Shown here: positions 35,663 through 64,000 of the stretch, piece by piece
Numbering within the stretch: position 1 is the stretch's first letter
Layout of the letters: each line of letters opens with the position of its first letter
Assembly: GCF_036669915.1 (NCBI RefSeq)
Contig: NC_089319.1
Coordinates: 20,586,885 to 20,650,884 of the forward strand
Direction: 5' to 3'
From: Pocillopora verrucosa
Lineage: Eukaryota; Cnidaria; Anthozoa; Scleractinia; Pocilloporidae
DNA length: 64,000 nucleotides
Made by a program: the position numbers and the translations under genes
Notes under the pieces: model-generated
Database searches by the model: none
What the model was told of the DNA's origin: nothing
What the model saw: the letters and a program-made list of their open reading frames with translations, nothing else

Positions 35663-35799
35663 GGTAAAATTTCCGCACAGCCCCATACTATTGTAAAACA
35701 AATCTGTTTTCCCAATGGCAATGTATTGTTTTTGTCATTGTTTTCTCTATCGAAGAACTGAATGCATAATGTAGGATGGGGCTGTGCGGAAATTTTACC
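35663..35799. mobile_element. 137-bp inverted-repeat element, first of a tandem pair
   Basis: It begins GGTAAAATTTCCGCACAGCC and ends with the reverse complement, GGCTGTGCGGAAATTTTACC. The inverted repeat is perfect over about 24 bp. The middle holds TGTTTTCCCAATGGCAATGT. It has no ORF, so it is a miniature element needing a transposase from elsewhere. Confidence 0.8.
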
Positions 35800-35804
35800 T
35801 TCAA

Positions 35805-35941
35805 GGTAAAATTTCCGCACAGTCCCATACTATTGTAAAACAAATCTGTTTTACCAATGGCGATGTATTGTTTTAGTCATTGTTTTCTCTATCCAAGAAC
35901 TGAATACATAATGTAGGATGGAGCTGTCCGCAAATTTTACC
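35805..35941. mobile_element. 137-bp inverted-repeat element, second of a tandem pair
   Basis: This copy has exactly the same length as its neighbour, in the same orientation and separated from it by only TTCAA. It differs by scattered substitutions (for example GAGCTGTCCGCAAATTTTAC at the right end), so the duplication is not recent. Confidence 0.8.
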
Positions 35942-37394: not shown

Positions 37395-39185
37395 ATGGCC
37401 GAAAACGCCTCAAAAGAACCACGCAACACAGCTAAGAGTCCGTACTGCTGGGATATGATGCGGTTACTCGACAATGCCCGCAAAGAAGGTGAATTGACAG
37501 ATGTTACTATGCGAGTGGAAGGACAAACATTCCCCGCTCACCGATGTGTTTTGGCAGCCAGTAGCCAATTCTTTCATGGTTTATTTACCAACGATATGAA
37601 AGAAAAATCGGCGTCAATCGTAAATATCGAAGGAATTCCAGTTTCGGTGATGAATGAGCTCTTGTCTTACCTTTACACGGGAGAGGTTCAAATGAGCGAG
37701 GCGAATGTCGATGATCTGATCGCATCCGCGAACTACTTACTACTTCCCCGTCTAAAAAACATCGCTTGCAAGTTTAAGGAGCGGCATATGTCGGCCACAA
37801 ATTGCGTTGCTACCTTTCTATATGCTGAGAAATACGATTGCAAGGAATTGAAAACATACGCTGGCGAATTAATCAAGCAGAACTTCGCGACGGTCGGCAA
37901 GTCCAAGGAATTCGTGCAAATTTCCTGTCATCAAATAAAGGATCTTATTTCAAGCGACGACTTAGTAACTGGAACCGAAGAAGAAGTCTTTGAATTCATT
38001 CTAGAATGGATCGCGCAAAATCAAGACGAGAAGGAGCAACATTTTGCGGAGCTGTTTAGACTCGTTCGACTGAGCAGCATATCCGATCAATATTTGTACA
38101 CAAAGCTTATGTGCCATGAACTAGTGCAGGCAAATGGCGAGTGTAAGGAAATATTAATGGACGAAATTCGCTGGCGTGCCTTGTTCTCTGGACAACAGAT
38201 CTCCCGACAAAAACCAAGAACTTGTCTTCAGACTCATGAAGATGCAATCATCACATGCGGTGGCCTGTCGCCAGATGAACGCATTCGCAACTTGACTGTG
38301 TGTTATGTTCCGGCTACGAAAACCTGGTACGAGTTGGCACCCATGCTTAACAGACGGTTTCGCCATGGTTTGGCTTCCTGTCGGGGATATGTTTATGCCA
38401 TCGGTGGTAAAGGAGAAGACTCGGTCTACAACAGCGTAGAACGATATGACCCGCGCACAAACTCATGGGGCTTTGTAGCACCACTGCCTCAGAGAGTGAC
38501 ATTAATGGGTGCAGCTACCTTACAAGGGCTACTGTACGTCACTGGCGGGATTGCGTTCAGTAGCGAGCACGGTGGTAGGCGTTGTGACACTGCGCAGAGG
38601 TACAACCCCTCGACAAACTCTTGGACTGTAGTTGCACCTCTAAAGAGACGCAAGTCCTCTGTTTGTCTCGTGTCAGACACTCACTATTTGTACTGCATTG
38701 GTGGCTTGGCCGACGATGGTTTCCTCTCTGATGTGGATCGTTATGATCCAAAGTTGAACGTATGGACACAGATGGCTCCGATAGGCGAACAGCGCGGGTG
38801 CGCTTGTGGAGTGTGCCTTGAAAAAAAGATTTACCTCTTTGGAGGTACTGTTGACCCATTTTCTTTAAATGCCCTCGTAAGTTGCGAGGTTTATGATATT
38901 ACTCTGAACGAATGGCAATCAATCGCTCCCTTACAAGTTCCCAGATTTCACGGAAGTGCAGTCCTTTTACGAGATCAGGTATACTTATTTGGCGGAACCG
39001 GAAGTCAAAGTGTCGATCGGCAGAATTCTCGTATGGTGGAGTGTTACGATATCAAGTCAAATACCTGGCTCGATGCTCATTCTATGCCATATAATGAGAC
39101 ATACTTCAGAGGATGCCCAGTAAGCATGTTTAAAGATCTACTACAGTCTGTGAACAAAGTTACAACTCTTCCCCAAAGTAGTTAG
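37395..39185 (+). CDS. Kelch-like protein (BTB-BACK-Kelch), intronless
   Basis: This single-exon ORF of 596 residues starts at an ATG in good context (GGAAACATGGCC). The BTB domain spans about 26-131 (GELTDVTMRVEGQTFPAHRC ... LLSYLYTGEVQM), the BACK domain about 136-240 (CVATFLYAEKYDCKEL ... EEEVFEFILEWI), and six Kelch blades about 283-565. The blades show the expected double glycine and the Tyr/Trp pair, for example YAIGGKGEDSVYNSVERYDP, YCIGGLADDGFLSDVDRYDP and YLFGGT (twice). Proteins of this layout are usually substrate receptors for cullin-3 ubiquitin ligases: BTB binds CUL3 and the propeller binds the target. Which KLHL subgroup and which target cannot be told from sequence. The lack of introns may mark an ancient retrocopy or a cnidarian lineage expansion. 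The ORF is fully intact, so it is not a pseudogene. Confidence 0.92.
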   Translation: MAENASKEPRNTAKSPYCWDMMRLLDNARKEGELTDVTMRVEGQTFPAHRCVLAASSQFFHGLFTNDMKEKSASIVNIEGIPVSVMNELLSYLYTGEVQMSEANVDDLIASANYLLLPRLKNIACKFKERHMSATNCVATFLYAEKYDCKELKTYAGELIKQNFATVGKSKEFVQISCHQIKDLISSDDLVTGTEEEVFEFILEWIAQNQDEKEQHFAELFRLVRLSSISDQYLYTKLMCHELVQANGECKEILMDEIRWRALFSGQQISRQKPRTCLQTHEDAIITCGGLSPDERIRNLTVCYVPATKTWYELAPMLNRRFRHGLASCRGYVYAIGGKGEDSVYNSVERYDPRTNSWGFVAPLPQRVTLMGAATLQGLLYVTGGIAFSSEHGGRRCDTAQRYNPSTNSWTVVAPLKRRKSSVCLVSDTHYLYCIGGLADDGFLSDVDRYDPKLNVWTQMAPIGEQRGCACGVCLEKKIYLFGGTVDPFSLNALVSCEVYDITLNEWQSIAPLQVPRFHGSAVLLRDQVYLFGGTGSQSVDRQNSRMVECYDIKSNTWLDAHSMPYNETYFRGCPVSMFKDLLQSVNKVTTLPQSS

Positions 39186-40490
39186 GTATGTTGAGTCCGT
39201 ATGACAGTTACCCTTGCGGGTTTTAATGCGAACTTCTACCAGCCATAACTTTTAAAAGCCATCGCAGCCCGCCTACTGACATAAACTCAGGAAAGGATGT
39301 TTTCACGGGAAAAAGTTCTTTCTAGATAAATGGAAAGCTTTCCCTCGAAACGTATTTTCATTTCAATTATGAGATGAAAACATTTGTATTTGCGAACTGT
39401 CACTCAATTTGGCAAATCTGTTTACGCTTTAATCGAATTGAGAAGGCTTGTCTAACGTATTAGTTAAAAGGAACAGGATCTCATTTATTTCCAAGAGTTT
39501 GTTTTAGTATTGAAGGAGTAAGTCTCTAAAGAAACTGCGGTACTGCGTCGGTGAGGGGTATTACACGATAAGTTGGTTTTCTAATCTAAAGTGATAATGT
39601 AAACTGGATACTGTCGATAGTTTCTGAAGCTGGCGTTTCGAGCGTTAGCCCTTCGTCAAAACAAATGACTTTGTTCATGAAACAAAAACCGTGATCATTG
39701 AAAGGTCTGATAGTTTGTTTACAATTATGATCGAGGAGATGTGGAAATGGTTTAAAATCGCAAGCAGAATGTATCATGAATTTATTTAGAAGATCAGTTA
39801 CCTTAAAGCCATCTGGAGCTTCTCGCTGAACGTAAACAAATTCTCGAGATAAATTCACGAGCGTAAAGAATTCTTGAAATCACCTTTTAACTTAACAATT
39901 GAACATTAACATTTACGGCTGAGATCTTCCTTGAGTCACGCGACTGTAAAAAGATCACGCAATTTTCATTTTTTTTATTATTAATGAAACTGTTAGAGTT
40001 TACCATTTCTGATTAAAATAAACTTGTTTGACTGTCAGTGAGATATATTTCCGTCGTAATCAAACCCTGAAACTGCTATCGTTTCTTCGGTTTGATTGCA
40101 AATTTAATAACAACATATCATTAAAGAAAGGTACATTGACGGCGCAATATTAATTTATTTATGTTACGGGTCGTTTAATGCGAATGACAATATTGAAATA
40201 ATTTGTTTCACACAACAGTTTCAAAACTCTTGACCAATACGAAATTTGATCATTTCTTACTTAAAGTTGAGTTCAGATACAACACTCAAAAGAACTTAAC
40301 ACCTATCTAAGAATTGTGACGCCACTACCTCTACAGTCTCATAAGACCCATCGTTTACACTATTCCAAAAATCAAACAATCGTTGATTAAAGAAACATTT
40401 ACATAAGCTAATCAAAACTAAACAGTCCATTGATAAACCAGTCTGCGTCGTCTTCCGTTGGGTGCGATTGTCAATCCTATCACGTGATAA

Positions 40491-40492
<2 letters not shown>
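39186..40492. other. Intergenic after the kelch-like gene
   Basis: Contains the 3' UTR of the kelch-like gene (AATAAA near 40017), a fragment of the dispersed TTAGCCCTTCGTC repeat at 39625-39660, and the left flank of the microsatellite. No gene was seen. Confidence 0.4.

Positions 40493-40571
<79 letters not shown>
40493..40571 (+). repeat. (GA)n microsatellite, left flank of the large element
   Basis: 79 bases of uninterrupted GA dinucleotide directly abut the inverted repeat of the 11.7-kb element. A matching tract of the same phase and strand abuts the other end at 52299. Confidence 0.95.
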
Positions 40572-40573
<2 letters not shown>

Positions 40574-40585
40574 AGATTGCTCTGC

Positions 40586-40770
40586 GTATTTGCTACTATA
40601 AGTGCGTATTTGCTACCGTAGCAAATACTCACCTCGTATTTGCTACCGTAGCAAATACTCACACTGCGTATTTGCTACCACAAATGCGTATTTGCTACCG
40701 TAGCAAATACGCATAGTGCGTATTTGCTACCACGAATGCGTATTTGCTACAGTAGCAGATAGTCGTACCA
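40586..40770. repeat. Subterminal GTATTTGCTAC palindrome array, left end
   Basis: About eight copies of GCGTATTTGCTAC lie within 185 bases. Several face an inverted copy, so that GTATTTGCTAC directly joins GTAGCAAATAC and forms a 20-plus base perfect hairpin (near 40610, 40640 and 40690). The spacers are variants of CACAAATGC or ACTCACC. Clustered palindromes near an element end are typical binding sites for the element's own recombinase. Confidence 0.85.
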
Positions 40771-42032
40771 CAAATGCGTATATGTTTCTATTTTCAAATC
40801 TTTATATTAATAATTGTAAGCCTTTTACCTGTTGCCTATTCATTTAAGGCTCCACGTTTCACTTCGTGTGAAGTGCATTGAGTCCTATCGTGATGTACTT
40901 GTGTTTTGTATATCAATAATAAAAGTATAGATACATTTTAACAGAAACCCTGTCCCTTTTTAACTGAATGTATGCACTAAGAAACCACTTTACGCTACTT
41001 TATCTGGGAGACGCGTACGCCTAAAGCCCAATGTATCGTGTTATGAGATGTCATGAGATTGCGTTACGTGACGTTATGTGAGCCACGTAAACCGGAAAGA
41101 CGCACGTGAATCCTTCTGCACGCTGCTTAAAGAGGTTTGTAGTATTTTTTATCTTCTATAGTACTTTAATGTGTCTTAATTAACCTACTTTAACTGCCGC
41201 GTTGTCTCTGGAGGTTTGCTTTATATATTTTATGTTTGTGATCTGTCATGATCAGATGTTTGGATGACAAATTTTACTTTAAAACTTCAACTTTTAGCTA
41301 CTAAAGACTTGGGACGAATCTCTTGCATTCTGCGATGATATAATCAGTTATTTCTTCTTGTATTGGCACTATTAGGTGCTTACAGTTCGTAAATATGTTA
41401 CGTTTAATCGAAAGGTAGTATTGCCATCACAAAGAAAATGTTGAATTTAAAATACACGCAGTAGCCCGTTTGTACATATGCGTAATTCTAATAACGGACG
41501 TAATCATAGATTTTGCTGTCGCTAGACATTTCTTTACAATATTTAGATCAATTCAGTTTTAAAATAACCGTTTCTTGACCTCTGCCGTCATTTAGGCCAC
41601 TATAAAAAGGCAGCGAAAATTTCATGAAATTACGCATTCTTCCACAAACCGGAAAGCATGGCCCCAGCAGTCAGCGTGACTAATTATAATGTAACTAGAT
41701 AGATAAATAGCGCAAATACTAAATAGCGCACCTCCTCTTTAAATAGTATAGTTTTCAAACAGAAATAATTTTTTCAACAATAAGAACTAGGTACTAGCGC
41801 TAAGATTTAGAGAAATATTACTTTTCCCATAGATATTTATAATTTGTATAGACAAACAAAAAAAATTTAGTAAAAGGAGCCACAAAGCGAAACAAAAGAC
41901 TTGTTCAACTCTTCAACGTACCGCAAGTCGGGAACAGTTGATAACTACAACCTGTGTTTGTTAGCTCCAAGGCGTATTGTTAATAGCCTGTCATTTAACG
42001 TTTCTCTTTTTACCATATTTTTCCATTATAGT

Positions 42033-45000
42033 ATGAATGAAATGGACAACGCAGGATTTACTTCTTCCCCCGCCGATAATGGCGCGTCAACGTCCACCAA
42101 TGTAAATCACTCTACGAGGTAAGAGTTTACTTGCATTGCCTTCAGGCCATGTTCAAGTAGAGGTCGCCTTGTTATCGTGTGATAAGCTTCCTTGATACAG
42201 GGAAATTCCAGTAAGGCCTGAGATGTATATGGTGGATTGCCAATGACGGGCGTTGCACCAAGATGGCTATAAGTATCTCGTATCGAAAAAGCGCGAGCGG
42301 AATAAAGAAAAGAATTGAGTTGGTACCTGTTTATATGGTCTCGGGTACCCGAGACAACCCTTCCCCCGAGTGACCCTAGGCGAGGTAATTTTTTAGTACA
42401 ATCTGTGAAAGATTCTACCAACCGTTTATATGATCTGATGGGGGGCGAGACAGGTAGGGCAGGCAGGTAGGGTAACCCTGGCAAGAGGTACAACTTTTTC
42501 TCACACTTTGACACTTAGGCTCGCCTACCCGGAACAATTAACGGCGTGTCGAGAGTCACGTATTTTCGAAGTTTCAGCTTTTAAAGCACAAATTTACGTT
42601 ACAAAAGTAGAATGAGCTCAACAAAGCCCACACTAATCGAATGAAAGAAACTCAAACGAAGAATGATATCTAGAAATTTGAATACTGAAATGCTTTATGA
42701 ATAATTAAGTAGTGTTAATTTTAACCCGACTAAGAGGGACAACTTTTTCTCATATAAACGCTCGATAAAGTTGTCTCGGTAAGGAGGGTTGTCTCAGGTA
42801 CCCGAGACCATATAAAAAGGGCCTTATCCTAGCTCCCATGCTGTTCTAACTGATGCGTAAACCTACTATAAATGTGGTCCATGGTATATGAAATACCTAT
42901 AACCAATCAAAATTCTGGAATAGCACTGTTGACTACTTTTTAACAGCGTGAAATAACGCGAGTGGCCTTTTTTTCAGAATACACAGAGGGGAGAGTGTAC
43001 ACAAAAAATTCCTCTCACAAGTAAAACACTTGATGTATACCACGCAAGGTTTTAATTTCAATTTTAATTTCAAAAATTCGCGTTAATTTTGTGAAAGAAA
43101 AAAAAACATTACTGTACATGGAACTGAATTTTAATAAACTTCGCGTAAATTTTGTTAAAATGCTTCGTTATATTCCTATGGCAAGGTAACTGATTTGTTA
43201 CATGTTCAATCATATGACTAGATAACACTAATAAAACTTTTTGAATTAAGGTATAGCTATAAATGTGTTACCACAACGAGCCAGTTTTAGTGAGGGACTT
43301 TTATAAGTCCGAATAAGCTGTACACTTCCTTCAAGCTTAATCATTAATGGCAACTCCACTACGTTTTTGCCTTTTCTTTGAAAACTTGAAAGTAAACATT
43401 TTAGAATTGTGTCTAGCAAATGATTATTTACTCTTCTGTCATTATCACGTATATTGTTACGCCTCGCGCGCCTTGACTATCACCACGTCTTTAACATCGC
43501 AAATTATTCTCATTACATGACCCTTTAAAAGAATGTCTCTCACTTCACGAAGAGACACGGACGAACAACAACAACAACAAAAAAATGTTCCACAATACAT
43601 ATATATTTTTAGTTTCTTAACGTTTTAATGTTTTATTTTCGAGCTGCATGCGCTTAGTGCTCGTTTTTAACATTTTTCTTTTACCCTCATTTTTTCCAAT
43701 TAATAGTGTCAATGAAAAGGACCGCAAAGAAGTTCCTTCGACCTCTGCAGATAATGGTATTTCACCATCCTCCAATGCCAAGCGCCCCGCGAGGATCTCT
43801 AGGATTTGTAAAAAGTGTAAGCGAAGTGTAAAAAATCTTAGTCGCCATCAGAAAGAAGTGCATGGCATGACAAAAATGCGTCGTAAGCTTGATGGTTATT
43901 TCACTGGGGAGAAAAAGGCACCCAATCGGCGAGTAAAATTCTGCCCCCTCTCACCATGCAAGATGTCCAAGACGCCAATTTTCCAGCTTGATAAACATCT
44001 TCAAAGTGGAATTCACAATCTGAAACCAAAGTCCTCAGCATATGTCAAGGCATTAGCGCAAGCCCCACGAGCGTCACTCTCAAAGGTGAATTCGTACTTA
44101 AAAAGGCAAAGAAAACAAAGAGCGCGGACGAATGAACAGGCCACATCAGATAAGAAAAACTTTAAAGGAAACCTTAACGAGGAGTATGATGCATGCGATG
44201 AAGCTGGCAATTCTAACGAGCAAAATATGAAATGCGACCCAGAAGACAACGACATGTACAGCGACCAAGATTATGAAGAATTAGGAAGAAGGGCACAGGG
44301 CAAAATAAGAAGTAGAGAAGAGAAAACTCGAGAAAAGAAACGTAGTAAAGAAGACAGTGACGAAGAGTATGACAGGCTTGCACACAAGGCGTGGAAAAAG
44401 AATGAAGTTGAAAAAACAAGAGCTAGAGCCAAGAAACAAAATGCAAGAACCAGTGACAGTACCAGTGATGACCTTGTCGACAGTGACAAAGAATACAGGA
44501 AGCTAGTGACCGAAGGTTTGAATGCAGAATGCAAAGGAGACATAATGGAGAGCAACCACAAGGAAAGTTTCGATAATGATACAGAGGACAAGTGGGAAGA
44601 CGAGATTTACAGCGAAGAAGAGAATGCAAATACTCGTAACAAGAACGAAGATTTTGAATGTGTTGAGATCTCTGACAGTGAGGAGAGTCGAAAATTAGAT
44701 CCTGATTACCTCTGTAGCGAAGAGTCGGATCCAGATACCTCGACACAATCAATCACATCAATCTCTTCCTCCTCTCTCTCTCAAGAATGCGAGGGACTAT
44801 TGACTGAGCTAATTGAGGTAATTGGCGAGGACAAAATCAACGAAGGATCATTCCTTGATAATGACGAAGACTGGCGCGAAACGGTAAAACAGTTTAAAAG
44901 TAGAAGAATAGCTCAAGGCCATACCTTCAAGAGTGAGCTCGAGTCTGCTGAGGAACTGGCGCGAGTCAACGAAGATAGCATGTATGAGGCATTTCATGAA

Positions 45001-47256
45001 GCACTTGATGGAGATGAGAGCGATAACGACGAAGCATTGGACACAAACTGGGTCCCAAGCGACTGTGAAATCAGTGAAAACGATAACATCAAGACCAAAG
45101 GCCAACCTGGAGGCGTTGACCTAAGCACGGGAACACTGCTGACAGAGTTCTATGAATGGTTGACGGACGTAGACGGAGGATATCGAAGCGAAAAAATGGC
45201 GCAGCAGTACAAATCTCAGGTTTTAAGCGTCATAAAGAGGCTTCAGATGAATGAAACGGAAGTCAGACACGAAAATCCAAAACCACCCGTGTACCTGCTC
45301 TTGCTTCCTGGAAAAGAAGGAGTAACTCTGTTGAAGCAATGGTTGTCATATGCTGTTTCCATGTACCAACCTGGAACTGTGCGCTCATATCTTATGAGTT
45401 TGCGTTTATTTTATAAATTTTTGACGCAAGAACGCAAACCCGACATGTCTGAAGTAAGCGTTGACATGTTAAACGCCCGCCGGGATCTGATGTCTTCCTG
45501 GTCATCGGCCCAAAAGAAGAAAGTTCTGAGAAGAAAGCTTCAGAAGCACGAGGAAGATTTTAAGAAACTGATCACCAGTGAAAATCTCTACCAAATCTGC
45601 CATGGTGATCAGCGAATAAATGCAGTAAAACAGCTTGGCAAATCGTCAAAGGAAACCAGTCAGGGGGCCGAGGTTCAAAGGATAATCAGCGACAAAACTC
45701 ACTGCGAAGTAAGGGATTGGTTGATGACTCGTCTCGTCATCGACAATAGTGGAAGAAGTGGGGTCATTGCAAACATGACCGTAGCTGAATTCAAGGACGC
45801 CGTTTATCACTCGGGTACAGACGAAGACCAGGCTCGTTACAGAATTCTTGTTAGTAACCACAAAACAGCTGACCAGTATGGTTCTGCGGTTATCTGGGTA
45901 TATGACGATTTGTACAAAATGATGGACATGTACCTAAGAACTGTACGAAGCCAGTTCACGGCAGCTACCCCACAGGTTGAACAACTATTCATTTCAAGCA
46001 ACGGGATGCCCCTAACATCTTCGCAGGTATCAACGTCGGTATGGCGAACTTTCCAGAGAGAGGGGATTGTGACAGAGGGAAGAATATCTGCCACAATTAT
46101 ACGGAAGTCTCTTGCTACTGGTATGCATGTCCACATGCCAGATGAAAAGGATCATCTCGCTGCCCTAGCCCAGCATAAGACCCTGACACAAGCCAGGTAT
46201 TATCGTGTCCACGATAAGCTTGTCGAAACTGACCTTGGCCGAAGGGCAGTGAGCAAACTTGTTGCCCTCAAATCAAGCAACGTTCATCAGCCACAGAATG
46301 ATCCCAAGGAGACTAAAGCAGTCCCAAAGCCGTGGAAGAGGGAGGAAACGGAACATCTGAAGGAGCTATTTAAACAAGACCTCGAGACAGGCGCTATCGA
46401 GGAGGCCAACGTGAAGGAAAAACTAACAACAACAACGCTTCTGGAGGAACGCCCCTTGAAGGCTGTGGTCTTAAAGCTCCGGAGACTAAGAGAAGAACAC
46501 ATGAAAGGTTGCGAGCCCCCATCTGACATAGAGTCTGCTGAAGCGAAAGTCAAGAGGTATCTTGATTCAGCCCAACCAGAAGCTGCGCCGTCATCCATAT
46601 CGCACATCTCAGGCTCGGTATCTGCTGAATCTTCAAGGTTATGGAAAAAATTCACGGAAGAGCAGGCAACCCATCTTTTCAAATTAACCAAAGACCTTAT
46701 TGAAGCTAACGCTATCAAGAAAGAAGTCGTCTGGCAGCGGGTGAAAGGCGACAAAAGGTAATTGTACTTGTTTGTCATGCACAAAAAAATCCTACAAACA
46801 TAAATGCAAAAGAAAGAAAGATGGTAAACAAGGGAAGTAACGGGAGTTCATTAGCAGGAAACAATAAGGCATATAACATACCTAAAGACCCCTCGTGATC
46901 TCACAGATGAAAAGGTTATACATTACAATTAGTGAAATAGACTGATTAAATGATCATCAGGCTGCGTAATTAATTTACTGCTTAAATTGCTTAATCATAT
47001 ACTCATGAGGGCTGTAAAATTAGTTGTGTGGACATCAAGGAGGAGATTATTTAATAGTTATAAAAAAAAAATAGAAGTTTAAGTTGAGATTATACACAGG
47101 GCAGCTTAAGACAGTGTTGACAACGTTTTTTTTAGGTCACTGGAACTCGAGCTATTGTCAGGAAGAGAGGATCAGGAAGAAGAAATGAGAACAAAACAGC
47201 GATTAACAGACAAGGTCAGAAAAATGGCGCGGGAAAGTAAAGTAAAGAGGAAGTGA
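42033..47256 (+). CDS. Tyrosine recombinase of the large element (Crypton-like), with zinc finger and Myb-like repeats
   Basis: Three exons, 42033-42118, 43707-46757 and 47136-47256, join in phase into 1085 codons plus stop. The borders are AG/GTAAGA, TTAATAG/T, AG/GTAATT and TTTTTTTTAG/G. Residues 1-58 hold a duplicated motif (SADNG...SSN). A C2H2-like finger CKKCKRSVKNLSRHQKEVH follows near 63-81. Residues 150-490 are acidic and charged. The recombinase region is about 500-885: a core-binding helical part (GTVRSYLMSLRLFYKFL), then catalytic Arg712 (DNSGRSGV), Lys748 (SNHKTADQYG), box II with Arg828 (ATIIRKSLAT, Thr where His is common), His852 (AQHKTLTQ) and Tyr860 or Tyr861 (ARYYR). Two Myb/SANT-like units close the protein (KPWKREETEHLKELF, and RLWKKFTEEQATHLF continuing into exon 3). 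Such enzymes cut and join DNA through the tyrosine. It is probably the mobility protein of the surrounding element. Confidence 0.85.
42329..42816. mobile_element. Nested ~490-bp inverted-repeat element in the recombinase intron
   Basis: The left end TTATATGGTCTCGGGTACCC, continuing into GAGACAACCCT, is matched by the right end AGGGTTGTCTCAGGTACCCG, continuing into AGACCATATAA. The inverted repeats are about 32 bp with one or two mismatches, and each contains its own GGTACC palindrome. The long minus-strand ORF across its left part has no recognisable domain and is probably incidental. Confidence 0.7.
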
Positions 47257-47462
47257 ATCACGACTAAATACCTAATGGTTACTGAGCCAGGGGAGTTACC
47301 ATTTTATCGTGCATACTTTCTTCATAGTTATGGAGTATGTGTCATAGTATCAGAGTAACACTTGTTATTTAGTTGCGTTTCGTTTTATATTCAAAGTCTA
47401 CAGGGGTGTTTTCTTGTTAGTTAGGTCTGCTTTTATCGGAGTGTGTTAAAAGCCTTTTCCTT

Positions 47463-48130
47463 AGTTACCTAACAGCATCATTAATGAATAGGCATCAGTT
47501 CAACACTGTTGTCAATTACTAAAACGTTCCAGAATGTTATAAGAAACAAAAATGACGACGGTAAAATGTGGGTTAGAATAATCACTAGTTCCCTGATAAC
47601 GTCGTTAATTAATCGCACTATATCTCCCACGCGATTATCAATAACTAAAGGTTGCTTTCTACTTATTATACCTAGACGCAACTAAATAACGGGTGTACCC
47701 TGATAGTATTATTAAGCCCAAATAATGGATCAAAAACGTTGTTTTTAACAGTAAGAGCAAAGGCGTGCATAGTTAAGTAACCGTATATGTGGGCTTCTTC
47801 GGCTTTGAGTGAGTTAAAGAGTCAGTTTTAATTGTTACCTGACAGCGTCGTTAACGATTGCGCAGGTCGTCTACAATACCGGCTTACACTTATAAGAACC
47901 AAAGGACGGTTTAAATCTGATAGTATCATTAAGGCCGTGTAACGTAACAGATCAAAAACTATGCTCTTGACTACTAAAGGAATGCCTACAACATAGGTTA
48001 ATTCGGCCTGAACCGAACAATATGCCGATCGTTAACATTGAGTTTAAAGACCTTTTTAGTTCCCTGACAGCGACAGCAATAAATGCTTTTCGATAGCTAC
48101 CTGACAGCGTCGTTCAGTGAATGCGCAACA
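47463..48130 (+). repeat. Degenerate array of TACCTGACAGCGTCGTTAA motifs
   Basis: Five copies are recognisable at about 47463, 47588, 47835, 48058 and 48098. The consensus is TTAGTTACCTGACAGCGTCG followed by TTAATGAATGCGCA. The spacing is irregular (about 40-250 bp). All lie inside the large element, downstream of the recombinase gene. There is no ORF. Confidence 0.65.
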
Positions 48131-48329
48131 GATCGTCTATACGATTAAGGATCACTGAAGTGCACCTTAAAGCCGATTACAACAAAATTAACTAACGAGT
48201 GTAACTTTTACACTATCGTTAGGCTGGAATAGCCTCTTCTTTTGTTATGACGTTTTTAATAAACGCGAGCATTACTTTGGACACAATTTATAATCACTTC
48301 GAAAAAGCAAAACTTAACTTCTAGTACGT

Positions 48330-49280
48330 GTAGTTAACCTGTAGTACAGGTTAGTTTTTACATCATCAATTAACATTTTTATTAAACAAATTCTTACTGT
48401 CAGGCCTTTGTGTCATTTTCAAGGTTTATGTTAAAAAAAATCGTTAACCATAGTTAGCTTTTAGTTCATTATGTACTAAAAATTTACTTTTAGTATATAG
48501 TTAATGTTTAATACGCTTTGTAGATCATTGAACATTTTGATTATATACATTCTTTATGCCTGACCTTGGTGTCCTTTTCAAAGATTGTTAAAAAAAATAG
48601 TTAATCATAGTTAACTTTTAGTACTTTTTGTACCAAAAATTTACTTATAGTATGTAGTTGATGTTTAGTGCGTTTTTACATCATTGAACATTGGGATTAT
48701 ACAAAACATCATTGAACATTGGGATTATACAAATTCCGGCTGTCTCTGGCCTTGGTGTTCTTTTCGAGGCTCATGTTAGAAAAAGGTTGTTGTTGACCAT
48801 AGTTAACTTTAAATACGTTTTAATCTAAGAGTTAACCTTAAGTGCTTAGTTCAAGTGTAGTACGTTTTGTACATCGTTGAACTTTTTGATTATACATATC
48901 TAATATTTTCCTATGAAATTTTGATTGTCCAGTCTTGTAAACTGTTTTTGCGACCAGTCCTTACGACAAAATAAAGGTAAACTGATCATTAACCAAAGCA
49001 GTCGGTCACTGCGACTAGTTCGTTCGTTTAAACACTACATGGGACTTATCTCTGTTGTAGGTCATTAGCTTGACCGTCCCTACGTGTTTTCCGAATTGTA
49101 TGTTAAAAAAGTTGTAGCTAGGCATGGCTTCCTTTTTGTACTCTTTTTTAATCTGAGGTCAGCGTTAAGGACATAGTCAACCATTAATACGTTTTTGAAC
49201 AGCTATCACACATTTTTATTGTACCCTTCCTGACCGCCTGGCCGTGGGGTCCTTTTTGAAGCTTATGTTATAAAATTATT
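48330..49280 (+). repeat. Degenerate ~165-bp tandem repeats inside the large element
   Basis: Units recur near 48363, 48527, 48691, 48872 and, more diverged, 49205. Each has CATAGTTAACTTTTAGTAC, then a TAGTTAATGTTTAGTACGTT block, then ATCATTGAACATTTTGATTA, then GGCCTTGGTGTCCTTTTCAA. Unit 3 has a local 20-bp duplication of CATCATTGAACATTGGGATT. No coding potential is seen. Confidence 0.7.
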
Positions 49281-51059
49281 AACGAATAAAAAACGTTTTA
49301 CTTGGATAATTCTTTATTTCATGATGTTTTACTTCTATCTTGCATCTGCCTGATAGAAGACGTTATGAGCTAGTTTCGAATTACGCTTCACTGATCCTAA
49401 ACAAAAGATCCAAGTCGAGGTTCAGGGGAATTATTTGAATTTTCTTTTTTTTTTTTTCCCTCAACCTCGACTTCGCTCCTTTGTTCGGTATCAGTAGAGA
49501 GTATTTACAAGGTAGCCTATTTATCATTATCATTACCCTATCCTTATTCGCACTGGAACGATTTCTCTGTCTGAGAACACAGGACTTTACCAGTTACATC
49601 AAACATACCACTTCCTACTTTATTGTTTTCGGGTATCTATCCATCCATTCACTTTGTGATATACTGATTTAGCGAAAACAGATCGCATTTAAGTATGTAC
49701 TAAATAGTTACAAACGTTTAATTTAATTGGCAGAATTGAAAAATTAAAAAATATCTGGACATTTGATCATTTCCCTATTAACTGGAGCCGTTATCGGGAA
49801 AGGAAACTATGGTTCTCTACGCGTCCCTTGGACATCAATCATCTCCCCACTTCTTGTATTGCTGATGCTATTGGTAACTGGCATGCTGTAATTCGTGCGT
49901 CGCTCTAGGAGATATTGTCAAATGATATTTAAAGAAAAAATGTTGGTATGTTGGCCTTTGTTGGTGTATTGATCTCTCAACTTACTTTGCAAACTTCCTC
50001 CAGGTGAAATTTCATAACAATGAATCAGACGAATGTTTTTACACTGAATGATGTACTTTTCTATACTTTTTCTGTTCTTTTCTTCTAAATGGGTCAAATA
50101 TTAAGTGCTGGCCTGAACGCAACTGACAAATTCGATATAATATATAAGTAAAATTAGTAAGTACAAACTAGAACTATACTGAAGTGAATATATGAAATTC
50201 ATATGTTTGTACTGCGGAGTACACTTACTTCAAATCTCGTTCAAGCCTGAATTATTTTCAGGCAAATTATCATGTTGCTAATGAGAAGGAATGAGGAAAG
50301 GAGGCAGTCTCTCGTCAAGCAATCGAGCAAGAACCTTACACAGTGTGTCAAACTGGGGGTGAATATGGCATAGCCGCTTAAGCGACGAACGAAAGCAAAT
50401 CGTTTTGAAAAAGCTCCTCGAAACAAGCTAGTGTCAGTAGTGGTCTTGATCGGCGACGTGTAAACGAAAGGCGTAACGTCATCGAAAGAGCTCTATGCGG
50501 TTGCAAAATTTATGAACCCTGTCTGTATAAACGCTGCACGAGGTATGCTTTCTCTACCTTAGCCACTTCCGTGTGGTCCAATAGCTTTGTCACCTTTTCA
50601 TTCACTGGGTGGTTAAGAGGGACTCCTTTGTATTCTGACCAGTAATATTAAGTTTGTATGATCTCTTACTCAGGGGGTAGATCATGTGATTTATAAGTTC
50701 AGTTACAAGACACACGGATATTTAAGAATTTAAAAGCATAAAACCACTAAAGAGCATTAAAGCTCATTAAAGGGCATTACTCATCAAAACATCTAAGCTA
50801 AAAAAGTAACAAAAGACGAAGGAAGACTCAATGAAACAACGCAAGCCTTAAACTTATCTAACAAAAGAGGAAGACTAAAGATTTAACACGAGACTAAAAA
50901 TAACTATGAAAAGAAAATGTTTTATTTTTTCTTCGTTTAGGGCGTGTTACTTGTCCGCTCTCTTGTCTAGGACCCCTTTGGATATCACCCTCGTTGCTGA
51001 ATGGGCCATCCTGGCAAAATAAAGATTACCTTACCCTTTCTCTTATCTATTCTCTTAAG
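49281..51059. other. Right interior of the large element, no gene seen
   Basis: AT-rich sequence with stop codons in all frames at normal frequency. The largest open stretches are about 60 codons and have no recognisable features. If this element carries cargo, it is not visible here as protein-coding sequence. Confidence 0.45.
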
Positions 51060-51655
51060 ATGATGTCACACGGGACGATTTTTAACGACAATTTTTAACG
51101 GCGATTTTAAATCCATGTTTCACAAGACAACTTTTAACGCAACATTGTTGCGACAACAGTATGTTACACGGGACGATTTTTTAAGGCAACATTGCGCGCG
51201 CGATCAATAACAACGTCAGTATTTCCGCAGAAACTACATTTGAAATACTTTCACTGAATGTTGCTTTATCTTCTCCAATTCTCATGACCTCTCTCAGCTT
51301 ACATGCCCTCAGACTTTTTCACACTCCTACTAGCTCGTCTAATGTGAAGTTGAATTCAAAGTGCTCCTTCGGTCTTTTAAAGCGGTTTCTTTTTATTCTT
51401 TCGCTGCTTTCTTCGGCAATTTTAGGGACACGTCTCACAAAATTAGTCTCACCTTGTAGAAAGCGATGAGTTTACACCTATCGTTGTTATCAAGATGTAC
51501 TTCTGGTATAAATGTCTCTACCGGAGCGGCCTCACTGTCAACAATCTCCGCCATTTTGTTTATTGACATGAAAAAAGAAAAAATGCTGACGTTGACTGAT
51601 CACGCGTTGTGCATTCTGGTACGATGTTGCGTTAAAAGTCGATGGCGAGGGTGTT
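51060..51655 (-). mobile_element. Nested transposon fragment with a minus-strand coding exon
   Basis: The left end has GTCACACGGGACGATTTTTA followed by AACG-type repeats (ACGGGACGATTTT recurs near 51170). The right end has TTGCGTTAAAAGTCGATGGC followed by GAGGGTGTTACATCATC, a rough inverse of it. Inside, on the minus strand, ATG 51554 opens a 34-codon exon (51554-51453) that starts MAEIVDSEAAPVETF and ends at AAG/GTGAGA. This looks like the first exon of a transposon accessory gene, possibly of the Harbinger type, but the remainder is not intact. Confidence 0.35.
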
Positions 51656-51718
51656 ACATCATCAATGCATCGCATTTTCTAAAGAAAAATCAACTTTGTC
51701 ACCAAAAACTGAAAGTGG

Positions 51719-52290
51719 GTATTTGCTACTAAATGCGTATTTGCTACGAAATACATTTTTCTAAATAAATCGTCAAAAAGTGCTAAATTGAATTATTCGA
51801 AAATGGAAGCAGTTCTTCTTTCAAAGCGCAAGCCATATGTGGAAAAATTATTTTGTTATAAAGAAAAGAAGGACATTTATGAGGAAAAAAGATTCCAGTA
51901 CCTTCAAAAAAATCTTCAACTTTAAGGTCGAGTTTACTTCATAGCCTCAGACAGGATTTGGTTCAAAAATTGACGTGGGAAAGAACAAAAAATATTTCAG
52001 CTCGACGGGGGCTTTGGTGGAAAATATCTTTTCGTAAATGACCTTTAGAATAATCAAAAATATAAAATTTCTAATTATTTTAGGGTCCGTGTACCTATGA
52101 CTGAGTATTTGCTACGTCTGTCTGATGAAATTCTCGATATTTTCTTCACAATGCTCGTAATTCTCTTCATTGCAATGTGGCCACGAAAAAGAATGTTTAA
52201 ATGAAAGGTCTATATCCCAAAAACATATCTTAAGTCCTTTTTAATGAATAAAAAAAGGAAAAGGAGATAAAGTAGCAAATAGGCAGACAA
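51719..52290. repeat. Subterminal TATTTGCTAC copies, right end of the large element
   Basis: GTATTTGCTAC occurs twice at 51719-51748, once near 52104, and in inverted orientation (GTAGCAAATA) at 52272 within the terminal repeat. The density is lower than at the left end and no perfect hairpins are formed. Confidence 0.7.
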
Positions 52291-52296
52291 CAATCT

Positions 52297-52298
<2 letters not shown>

Positions 52299-52343
<45 letters not shown>
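52299..52343 (+). repeat. (AG)n microsatellite, right flank of the large element
   Basis: 45 bases of uninterrupted AG start directly after the terminal CAATCTAA. Together with 40493-40571 it reads as one GA tract interrupted by the element. Confidence 0.95.
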
Positions 52344-52347
<4 letters not shown>

Positions 52348-52639
52348 TTAAACAGTTTACTTTCGTATCTTTCATAATACATTCAGGCACGGATAGGAGT
52401 CTCATACAAGTGGAAATGGGGTCTATATTCCCACCAGGTAATGAGGGATACTCTAAAAATCGAGATAATACGTTGGCAAACAAATATTTTTGATTCCTAG
52501 ACATTAATTATTAAAAATTGGTCGGCAAAGTCGTGCATAAAGAATCTCTCAGCTCTATCAAGTCACTTGTGCGGTATACTGGTTCAGTATACAAGTCGGT
52601 TATACAATCCAAAGAAACACGAAAGAAACTTCCATCATG

Positions 52640-53280
52640 TTTTTTTTTCTTTTATTTTAAGGTTTTAAAATTCATTTTCAACTTCAGAGGCAACCACGAC
52701 TAAATTTTTTGCCGCGCACCAAAATGTCCCGTTTTACGTTAAAAGCTTCGATTGAATGAATGAATGAACTGATCACATCAAATGCAAATTTGCATAAAAG
52801 TCATCAAATGTTGCGTGGACACGCGCGTAAGTTTGATTTTTCCTCGTTCGCTCTCTTTCAAAATTGGTATAGTTTTCTCTTGTGCAGTGATCTGTGAATT
52901 CTGCTCCTTGGTTTGACAAACAAGACTTGTAGCTTACAGGTTTTCGTGTCACATCAAAGGCAAATTTACCTAAAAGTCATCAAATGTTGCGTGGACACGC
53001 GTGTAAGTTTGATTTTTCCTCGTTGGCTCTTTCTCAAAATTGGTATAGTTTTCTCTTGTGCAATGTTCTGGGAATTCTGCTCCTTGGTTTGACAAACAAG
53101 ACTTGTAGCTTACAGGTTTTTCGTGTCACCCTCACTGAAATAAAGGCCTCGGATGAATGACGCAAAATTGAATATTCATGTTTTCTTGCAGTTATTTATA
53201 GGTTTTGAAATTCATTTCAAACTTCTGAGGCAACCACGACTAGATTTTTTACCGCGCACCAAAATGTCTCGGGGAAGCAC
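52640..53280 (+). repeat. Nested tandem duplications
   Basis: A 176-bp unit is repeated directly (52773-52948 and 52949 to about 53125), with blocks GTCATCAAATGTTGCGTGGA, CTGCTCCTTGGTTTGACAAA and AGACTTGTAGCTTACAGGTT. This pair is itself flanked by two copies of a further block (about 52650-52735 and 53190-53275) with GAGGCAACCACGACTA and CCGCGCACCAAAATGTC. No ORF is conserved. Confidence 0.75.
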
Positions 53281-62334: not shown

Positions 62335-62828
62335 ATGCTAAGCAATTTAATGTTGAGCTAGAGCATTTGATGTTCTGCAAAGCTATTTGACGTAACACTA
62401 CACCGTTTGTGTGTACACTGTACCATTCGACATTACGCTGAGCCGTTTCACGCAACGCTACACTGTTTGTATATGTACGCTCTACCATTCTACATTACGC
62501 TGAGCCATTTCACGCAACGCTACACTATTTGTGCGTACGCTATGTTGTTTGACATTACCCCGAGCCATTTCACGCAACGCTACACCGTTTGATATTTGCG
62601 CTGTGCTATTCGACATTGCGCTAAGCCATTTCACGCAACGCTACACCGTATGTGTGTACACTGCACCATTCGACATTACGCTGAGCCATTTGACGCAACA
62701 CTTCGTCGTTTGTGTCCTGTATTGCAAAAGAGTGCTAAGCCATTTCACGCAACGCTACACCGTATGTGTGTACACTGCACCATTCGACATTACGCTGAGC
62801 CATTTGACGCAACACTACATCGTTTGTA
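62335..62828. repeat. Minisatellite, unit about 62 bp
   Basis: Seven to eight units are recognisable through GAGCCATTTCACGCAACGCT, near 62440, 62502, 62563, 62624, 62686, 62740 and 62802, each followed by ACACCGTTTGTGTGTACACT and CATTCGACATTACGCT. The unit is open in several frames on both strands. That is why long ORFs appear here; they have no other support. Confidence 0.88.
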
Positions 62829-62959: not shown

Positions 62960-63025
62960 TTCTTTTGAATTCGTCTTGTTATAGGCAAATCGCACCACAA
63001 GCTTTGGTAGGGAAACACGCTCAGT

Positions 63026-64000
63026 ACCAACCAAACCATTTGCCTAATGACTGATATGCGTGACCATGGCTATGAACAAAAGTTCGCATTGATTTGAGTG
63101 GGAGGTGTCTTTTACAACACAATCAGTGCGGCTGTTTCTTAAGTGTAAGGAGTGTATAGTCACATTCACAGCCGTTTTCCGAACACATTACATGATATGG
63201 TTTCGACTGAAATGCTTCGGTAAGCTCTTTACTCGCTTACTCTACGCGGGGTAGCTGGGCGCTGATTACAAAACAGCGGCAATTAAACTTTCACGTATTT
63301 ATTGTAAAGGACAAGTTGTGCGTTAAAATTTAACAAACTAAAGTCAACTCAGAATATAATGTGCAAAAGTTGTACTTAAAGCAGGTACATTACTCACTGG
63401 TTTTACCAACCAAACCATTTGCCTAATGACTGATATGCGTGACCATGGCTATGAACAAAAGTTCGCATTAATTTGAGTGGGAGGTGTCTTTTACAACACA
63501 ATCAGTGCGGCTGTTTCTTAAGTGTAAGGAATGTATAGTCACATTCACAGCCGTTTTCCGAACACATTACATGATATGGTTTCGACTGAAATGCTTCGGT
63601 AAGCTCTTTACTCGCTTACTCTAAGCGGGGTAGCTGGGCGCTGATTACAAAACAGCGGCAATTAAACTTTCACGTATTTATTGTAAAGGACAAGTTGTGC
63701 GTTAAAATTTAACAAACTAAAGTCAACTCCGAATATAATGTGCAAAAGTTGTACTTAAAGCAGGTACATTACTCACTGGTTTTACCAACCAAACCATTTG
63801 CCTAATGACTGATATGCGTGACCATGGCTATGAACAAAAGTTCGCATTAATTTGAGTGGGAGGTGTCTTTTACAACACAATCAGTGCGGCTGTTTCTTAA
63901 GTGTAAGGAATGTATAGTCACATTCACAGCCGTTTTCCGAACACATTACATGATATGGTTTCGACTGAAATGCTTCGGTAAGCTCTTTACTCGCTTACTC
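63026..64000 (+). repeat. 379-bp tandem satellite, runs off the window
   Basis: Units begin at 63026, 63405 and 63784 with ACCAACCAAACCATTTGCCT. The spacing is exactly 379 bp twice, and the third unit is cut by the window end. Units differ by only a few bases (for example CTACGCGGGG against CTAAGCGGGG), so expansion is recent. The start of the unit equals the upstream flank of microprotein copy 4 and resembles those of copies 1 and 2. No ORF of note is present. Confidence 0.92.

Follow-up and report, generated by a model that had tools for sequence, protein, structure and literature searches.

A Putative 11.7-kb Tyrosine-Recombinase Element With Inverted Ends Inside a GA Microsatellite of a Stony Coral

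A GA microsatellite of the stony coral Pocillopora verrucosa (contig NC_089319.1) is split by a long segment of DNA, which raises the question of what this segment is and which enzyme moved it there. The DNA analyzed is a stretch of 64 kb, referred to as the window, and the structure of the element was read from the one copy that lies within it. The segment comprises 11,727 bp (40572-52298), interrupts the GA tract in phase and carries a gene for a tyrosine recombinase (YR). The element is best read as a stony-coral DNA transposon moved by its own YR in the manner of Tn916/Tn1549 or of lambda integrase, a reading to which we assign a probability of about 0.53. The following features define its edges:

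40493..40571, + strand: left portion of the split (GA)n target tract, 39.5 units (tandem-repeat reading, 100% matches)
40572..40600, + strand: left terminal inverted repeat, TTAGATTG-CTCTGC-GTATTTGCTAC-TATA
40586..40762, + strand: left subterminal array of 10 exact GTATTTGCTAC sites, 7 in direct and 3 in inverted orientation, with three 23-bp palindromes, and a degenerate site at 40752-40762 (2 mismatches); proposed arm-type recombinase sites
51719..52115, + strand: GTATTTGCTAC sites of the right subterminal region, at 51719, 51737 and 52105
52268..52298, - strand: right terminal inverted repeat, including the fourth right-side GTATTTGCTAC site (52272-52282, 1 mismatch)
52299..52343, + strand: right portion of the split (GA)n target tract, (AG)22.5, 22.5 units (100% matches, in phase with the left portion)

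The first-pass annotation of this DNA had described GA repeats abutting both ends of the segment, and this description holds: a perfect (GA)39.5 on the left ends in G, and a perfect (AG)22.5 on the right begins with A. The outer neighbours of the interrupted tract are TCACGTGATAAAG and ATGCATTAAACAG. Only three dinucleotide tracts of at least six units are present in the window, and two of them form the edges of the element. The possibility that the GA tracts are themselves part of the element ends was considered and rejected. Reading inwards, GA precedes the left end and TC precedes the right end, so that the flanks stand in a direct and not in an inverted relation to each other and therefore represent the target rather than the inverted repeat. 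The observation of a DNA segment that interrupts a GA tract is confirmed.

The ends themselves were compared by aligning the left 29 bases with the reverse complement of the right 31. This alignment contains 26 of 29 identical positions, three mismatches and one 2-bp gap and reaches a score of 41, which was attained by none of 100,000 random 40-bp pairs drawn from the sequence around the element, whose highest score was 37; one pair scored as high in an initial set of 20,000 for which element sequence had also been sampled. The inverted repeat previously given as 26-28 bp is therefore slightly longer, with 29 bp on the left and 31 bp on the right. The two ends agree fully in their outermost 8 bases, TTAGATTG (from 40572 on the + strand and at 52291-52298 on the - strand). 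Although TTAGATTG alone occurs at chance frequency, with 4 matches in the window against 3.96 expected, a chance origin of the full inverted end was rejected on the basis of the random pairs.

A second motif, GTATTTGCTAC, marks the regions just inside the ends. At no more than one mismatch it occurs 14 times in the window, against 1.04 expected, and all occurrences lie near the element ends, ten in the left 180 bp and four within the right 580 bp. Site starts on the left are 12-20 bp apart in both orientations, and the outermost site at either end falls within the inverted repeat. Allowing a second mismatch yields 29 matches in the window, against 18.6 expected; of the 15 matches added, one extends the left array (40752-40762), and the others look like background, most of them spread across the window as expected by chance. 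Although the enrichment at two mismatches is moderate, a chance origin of the array was rejected, since none of 100 shuffles reached 14 sites. The inverted ends and the palindromes next to them thus coincide in one unit with the GA flanks and a YR gene, as had been proposed.

These results bear on the question of whether the structure is accidental, that is, whether the YR gene belongs to an older, differently bounded element lying between unrelated GA tracts, or whether the assembly was joined at the GA tracts. Assemblies often break at microsatellites, and a single copy was seen, both of which fit such an origin. Yet the ends meet the two tracts without any gap, the tracts are in phase, the inverted repeats match, the edges account for two of the three dinucleotide tracts found, and the end-motif array is confined to the element, so that we regard an accidental origin as very improbable.

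The gene inside the element was described at first as a single intact recombinase gene. Its reading frame (43648-46761, 1037 amino acids) is indeed open and the YR it encodes is intact, but the open reading frame is not the whole gene, and the view of a single intact frame was replaced by that of a spliced gene with the following parts:

42033..42118, + strand: likely 5' coding exon of the recombinase, with ATG at 42033 and a GTAAGAG donor; resembles the N-termini of the family (best E 8e-4)
42326..42820, strand not assigned: insert of ~495 bp bounded by 36-bp inverted repeats (94% complementary), in the predicted first intron
43648..46757, + strand: main coding exon, starting at ATG 43648 or at acceptor 43706 or 43793; two C2H2 fingers, acidic linker, SAM-like domain, YR catalytic domain and C-terminal helical region
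46758..47135, + strand: predicted spliceosomal intron, GTAATT ... TTTTTTTTAG
47136..47256, + strand: 3' coding exon ending in TGA; conserved in the family (best E 6e-10)

When translation starts at 43648, the spliced protein has 1076 amino acids. Six acceptors for the 5' exon keep the frame open, and the two that were followed further give proteins of 1085 (43706) and 1056 (43793) amino acids. The gene begins 1.5-3 kb inside the left end. The insert at 42326-42820 is probably a nested miniature inverted-repeat transposable element that lies outside the mechanism discussed below; no clear target duplication was found around it on inspection.

The protein keeps the catalytic set R-K-R-H-Y of the YR superfamily (R703, K739, T816xxR819, H843 and Y852), with the histidine of the HxxR motif replaced by threonine. 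A recombinase fold with core-binding and catalytic domains is predicted, with a structural match to the Int protein of Tn1549. Beyond the catalytic domain the protein extends by ~165 amino acids plus the 3' exon, both of which are conserved in the family.

This family is large. Among ~8,000 candidates scored, a direct protein search gave at least 50 matches and a profile search at least 95, with named relatives in Montipora, Pocillopora and Stylophora, and 63 proteins match in a search started from the most distant member bearing PF00589; the three sets overlap. The closest relative among the matches listed is 99% identical over the part compared. Several clusters of the family contain many sequences (430, 290, 264 and 226 members), as expected for a repeated element, and several assemblies may contribute to these numbers. 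The recombinase thus comes from a many-membered family whose named members are corals. Among 32 members scanned with Pfam at E ≤0.1, PF02899 was found in 29 and PF00589 in 17, and both domains are below cut-off in the window protein. A wider YR family was also noted (P0096, P0099-P0160), in which the proteins read also have C2H2-like fingers. Its named members are from the stony corals Desmophyllum and Oculina, and some metagenome copies bear the name 'site-specific recombinase XerD', although at least part of this wider family seems to be eukaryotic.

We then asked whether the element carries any other enzyme. Of 25 stop-to-stop open reading frames of at least 60 amino acids, 17 were scanned with Pfam at E 0.1; the eight remaining frames are four that consist mostly of GA repeats from the left tract, two on the strand opposite to the YR exon, one located in the right flank, and that of the YR, which was scanned separately. 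None of the 17 frames contains a Pfam domain at or above its cut-off, and two matches below cut-off (neuropeptide FF, 0.026; bZIP, 0.087) were taken as chance. In these frames we thus found no match to a conjugation module, to accessory cargo or to viral core genes, although viral genes that have no Pfam model would escape, and no DDE transposase, although one that is split by introns or decayed could be missed. Rfam gave no match at gathering score in 40400-52500. Because no other enzyme was found in the 17 frames, the YR is favoured as the mover.

The same scan gave no match to reverse transcriptase, RNase H or methyltransferase, and it argues against the view that the element is the remnant of a YR retrotransposon of the DIRS or Ngaro type that lost its reverse transcriptase. 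Such an origin would account for the inverted ends, since DIRS1-like elements have inverted repeats, and Ngaro elements are abundant in Nematostella according to the available text of PMC4157794. With a predicted intron in the gene and a conserved exon beyond it, this origin is already disfavoured, and we give it hardly any weight.

The main rival is of another kind: the inverted ends could belong to a GA-preferring DDE cut-and-paste transposon that is mobilized in trans or no longer has a transposase of its own, and the YR would be a passenger, as in composite elements. Dense subterminal repeats are typical of hAT and CACTA elements too. Composite elements are on record, since Tec, Sardine and Thon of ciliates and MarCry-1_FO of a fungus resemble the coral element in having a YR gene but, unlike it, also have a DDE transposase in the accounts available. 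For Sardine and Thon, which carry both enzymes, and for MarCry-1_FO these accounts state inverted ends, and in MarCry-1_FO the 16-bp inverted repeats and the TA duplications are owed to the mariner DDE enzyme. On Tec the sources differ, as TEC is listed among elements with only a YR domain in the available text of PMC4157794. A further precedent comes from sesarmid-crab nimaviruses, which lack a YR, have 46-bp inverted repeats, insert in (AT)n and possess a Ginger2-like integrase; clear inverted repeats are described as unique to them among nimaviruses in the part of PMC10871703 available. Against this explanation stand the lack of a DDE domain in the frames scanned and the fact that the YR is the only long open gene. 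A target duplication is unreadable in the GA tract either way, as any duplication of even length is invisible within (GA)n. On balance, we consider that a DDE element with a passenger YR is unlikely, while it is the alternative to be taken most seriously.

How could the YR itself move the element? In the circular form of Tn1549, inverted ends flank a short crossover and are bound by Int, which has a further domain for arm binding, as described in the available text of PMC5871717. Transferred to the coral element, this would mean that the recombinase excises it in circular form. A short GA crossover would then separate the opposed TTAGATTG ends, with the predicted junction CAATCTAA-(GA spacer)-TTAGATTG. 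Each terminal inverted repeat would represent one core half-site of a recombination site, and the GTATTTGCTAC array would provide arm sites, to which either the zinc fingers or the C-terminal region would bind. Recombination of the circle with another GA tract, the source of the matching crossover, would follow. Movement of this type predicts circles whose ends meet at TTAGATTG and a target duplicated no further than the crossover; since a GA crossover is asymmetric, one fixed insertion orientation relative to the purine strand would be expected.

The coral element shares with Tn916/Tn1549 the YR and the inverted ends, which in Tn1549 flank the short crossover, with arm and core binding separated (PMC5871717, available text). 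In contrast to these elements, it resides in an animal, shows no conjugation genes in its reading frames, and has introns and zinc fingers in its gene. It also uses a GA tract, whereas Tn1549 inserts at diverse sites and needs almost no crossover homology according to the same text; a GA-matched crossover would therefore be nearer to the lambda type. The element looks more like some bacterial transposons than like known animal recombinase elements, and we infer by analogy that it works like Tn916- or lambda-type elements without being a member of either. More tentatively, and with doubts outweighing confidence, we propose an animal transposon family with an integrase-type att system, in which the ends rebuild a GA-crossover core site in the circle, the long arm-site array assembles the complex and any genomic GA microsatellite can act as attB, with fixed orientation and little gene damage.

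Among animal elements, the closest comparison is with the Cryptons. CryptonA and CryptonI likewise have the YR as the only recombination enzyme of a DNA element and are known in cnidarians. The statement that Cryptons lack terminal inverted repeats was borne out for the published animal Cryptons, which have neither terminal repeats nor a C-terminal domain in the available text of PMC3212892. The coral ends are inverted at 26 of 29 positions, and direct repeats would be unreadable in GA; by the criterion of terminal repeats, the coral element is not a Crypton. One may nevertheless consider an animal Crypton-like element whose inverted ends are due to chance or are recombinase-binding motifs near one-sided ends. 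As far as the available sources go, Cryptons are known from Nematostella, so that a YR-only DNA element in a cnidarian would fit, and the 4- or 6-bp terminal direct repeats of Cryptons could hide in GA. However, the inverted ends lie far above chance, the protein has a long C-terminal extension unlike those of published animal Cryptons, and DUF3504 is absent from the nine Pfam families listed for the 32 scanned members. We therefore consider a Crypton-like origin improbable.

Starships, in the available text of PMC12134995, are eukaryotic YR elements that sometimes have inverted repeats, as does the coral element. They are large fungal cargo carriers with a DUF3435 captain, whereas the coral element has 11.7 kb and one gene, and DUF3435 had no match in the 32 members scanned at E ≤0.1. 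The captain of a Starship lies at the 5' edge; the coral gene starts 1.5-3 kb inside the left end. Majaniviruses and relatives share with the coral element residence in animal genomes, a YR with C2H2 and SAM-like domains and a position within a microsatellite; these crustacean nimaviruses insert into telomeric (TAACC)n repeats according to the available text of PMC10871703. They differ from it in being large viruses, and no viral domain was seen in the coral element. YR-bearing nimaviruses are moreover characterized by a telomere-repeat or ribosomal DNA target, whereas the coral target is (GA)n.

Contig collections of viruses and prokaryotes were also scanned. With the YR protein, alignment A2, P0134 and P0020, the viral contigs gave 1, 12, 1 and 4 pattern matches, respectively, and the genome contigs gave 20 with alignment A2, none with an encoded relative. 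The end pattern had 34 viral matches, and the palindrome pattern had none in viruses and three in prokaryotes. As the best E of a tblastn search with the YR against all 37 of these loci was 1.2, the pattern matches were taken as chance.

Several further observations concern the rest of the window. The right 5 kb of the element (47257-52298) gave no gene in the scanned frames and contains several degenerate repeat families (~157-bp units at 48364-48705, with relatives up to 49275). Outside the element, a single-exon BTB-kelch-like open reading frame, named by eye from its translation, lies at 37395-39185 and ends 1.3 kb before the left GA tract begins. Tandem duplications of two copies each occur at two separate places, 52773-53129 and 35663-35941 (176-bp and 142-bp units, respectively; 93% matches), and a 379-bp satellite (63025-64000, 2.6 copies, 99% matches) reaches the window end and is adjoined by a degenerate 60/114-bp tandem array at 62376-62827.

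The first-pass annotation had gone on to suggest a distinct class of element. For the combination of traits, the literature searched gave no published match, but the term is too strong, as inverted-end YR elements (some Starships, PMC12134995) and YR-linked microsatellite insertion (nimaviruses, PMC10871703) appear in the available texts of these sources. Since each trait has a precedent, the coral element is regarded as a variant of YR DNA transposons and not as a new category. In the literature searched, judged mostly by titles and abstract openings, no paper was found that describes the union of a YR, inverted ends, a dinucleotide target and an arm-like array without a DDE gene, or that names a YR element from corals whose ends are inverted and whose target is GA.

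Animal YR DNA transposons are poorly understood, partly since their boundaries are hard to characterize, as noted in the available text of PMC3212892. If the ends described here are real, substrate sites, target and enzyme are now all available for an animal YR element. A recombinase with GA microsatellites as landing sites could become a tool, and such landing sites could account for the spread of a large element at low cost to its host.

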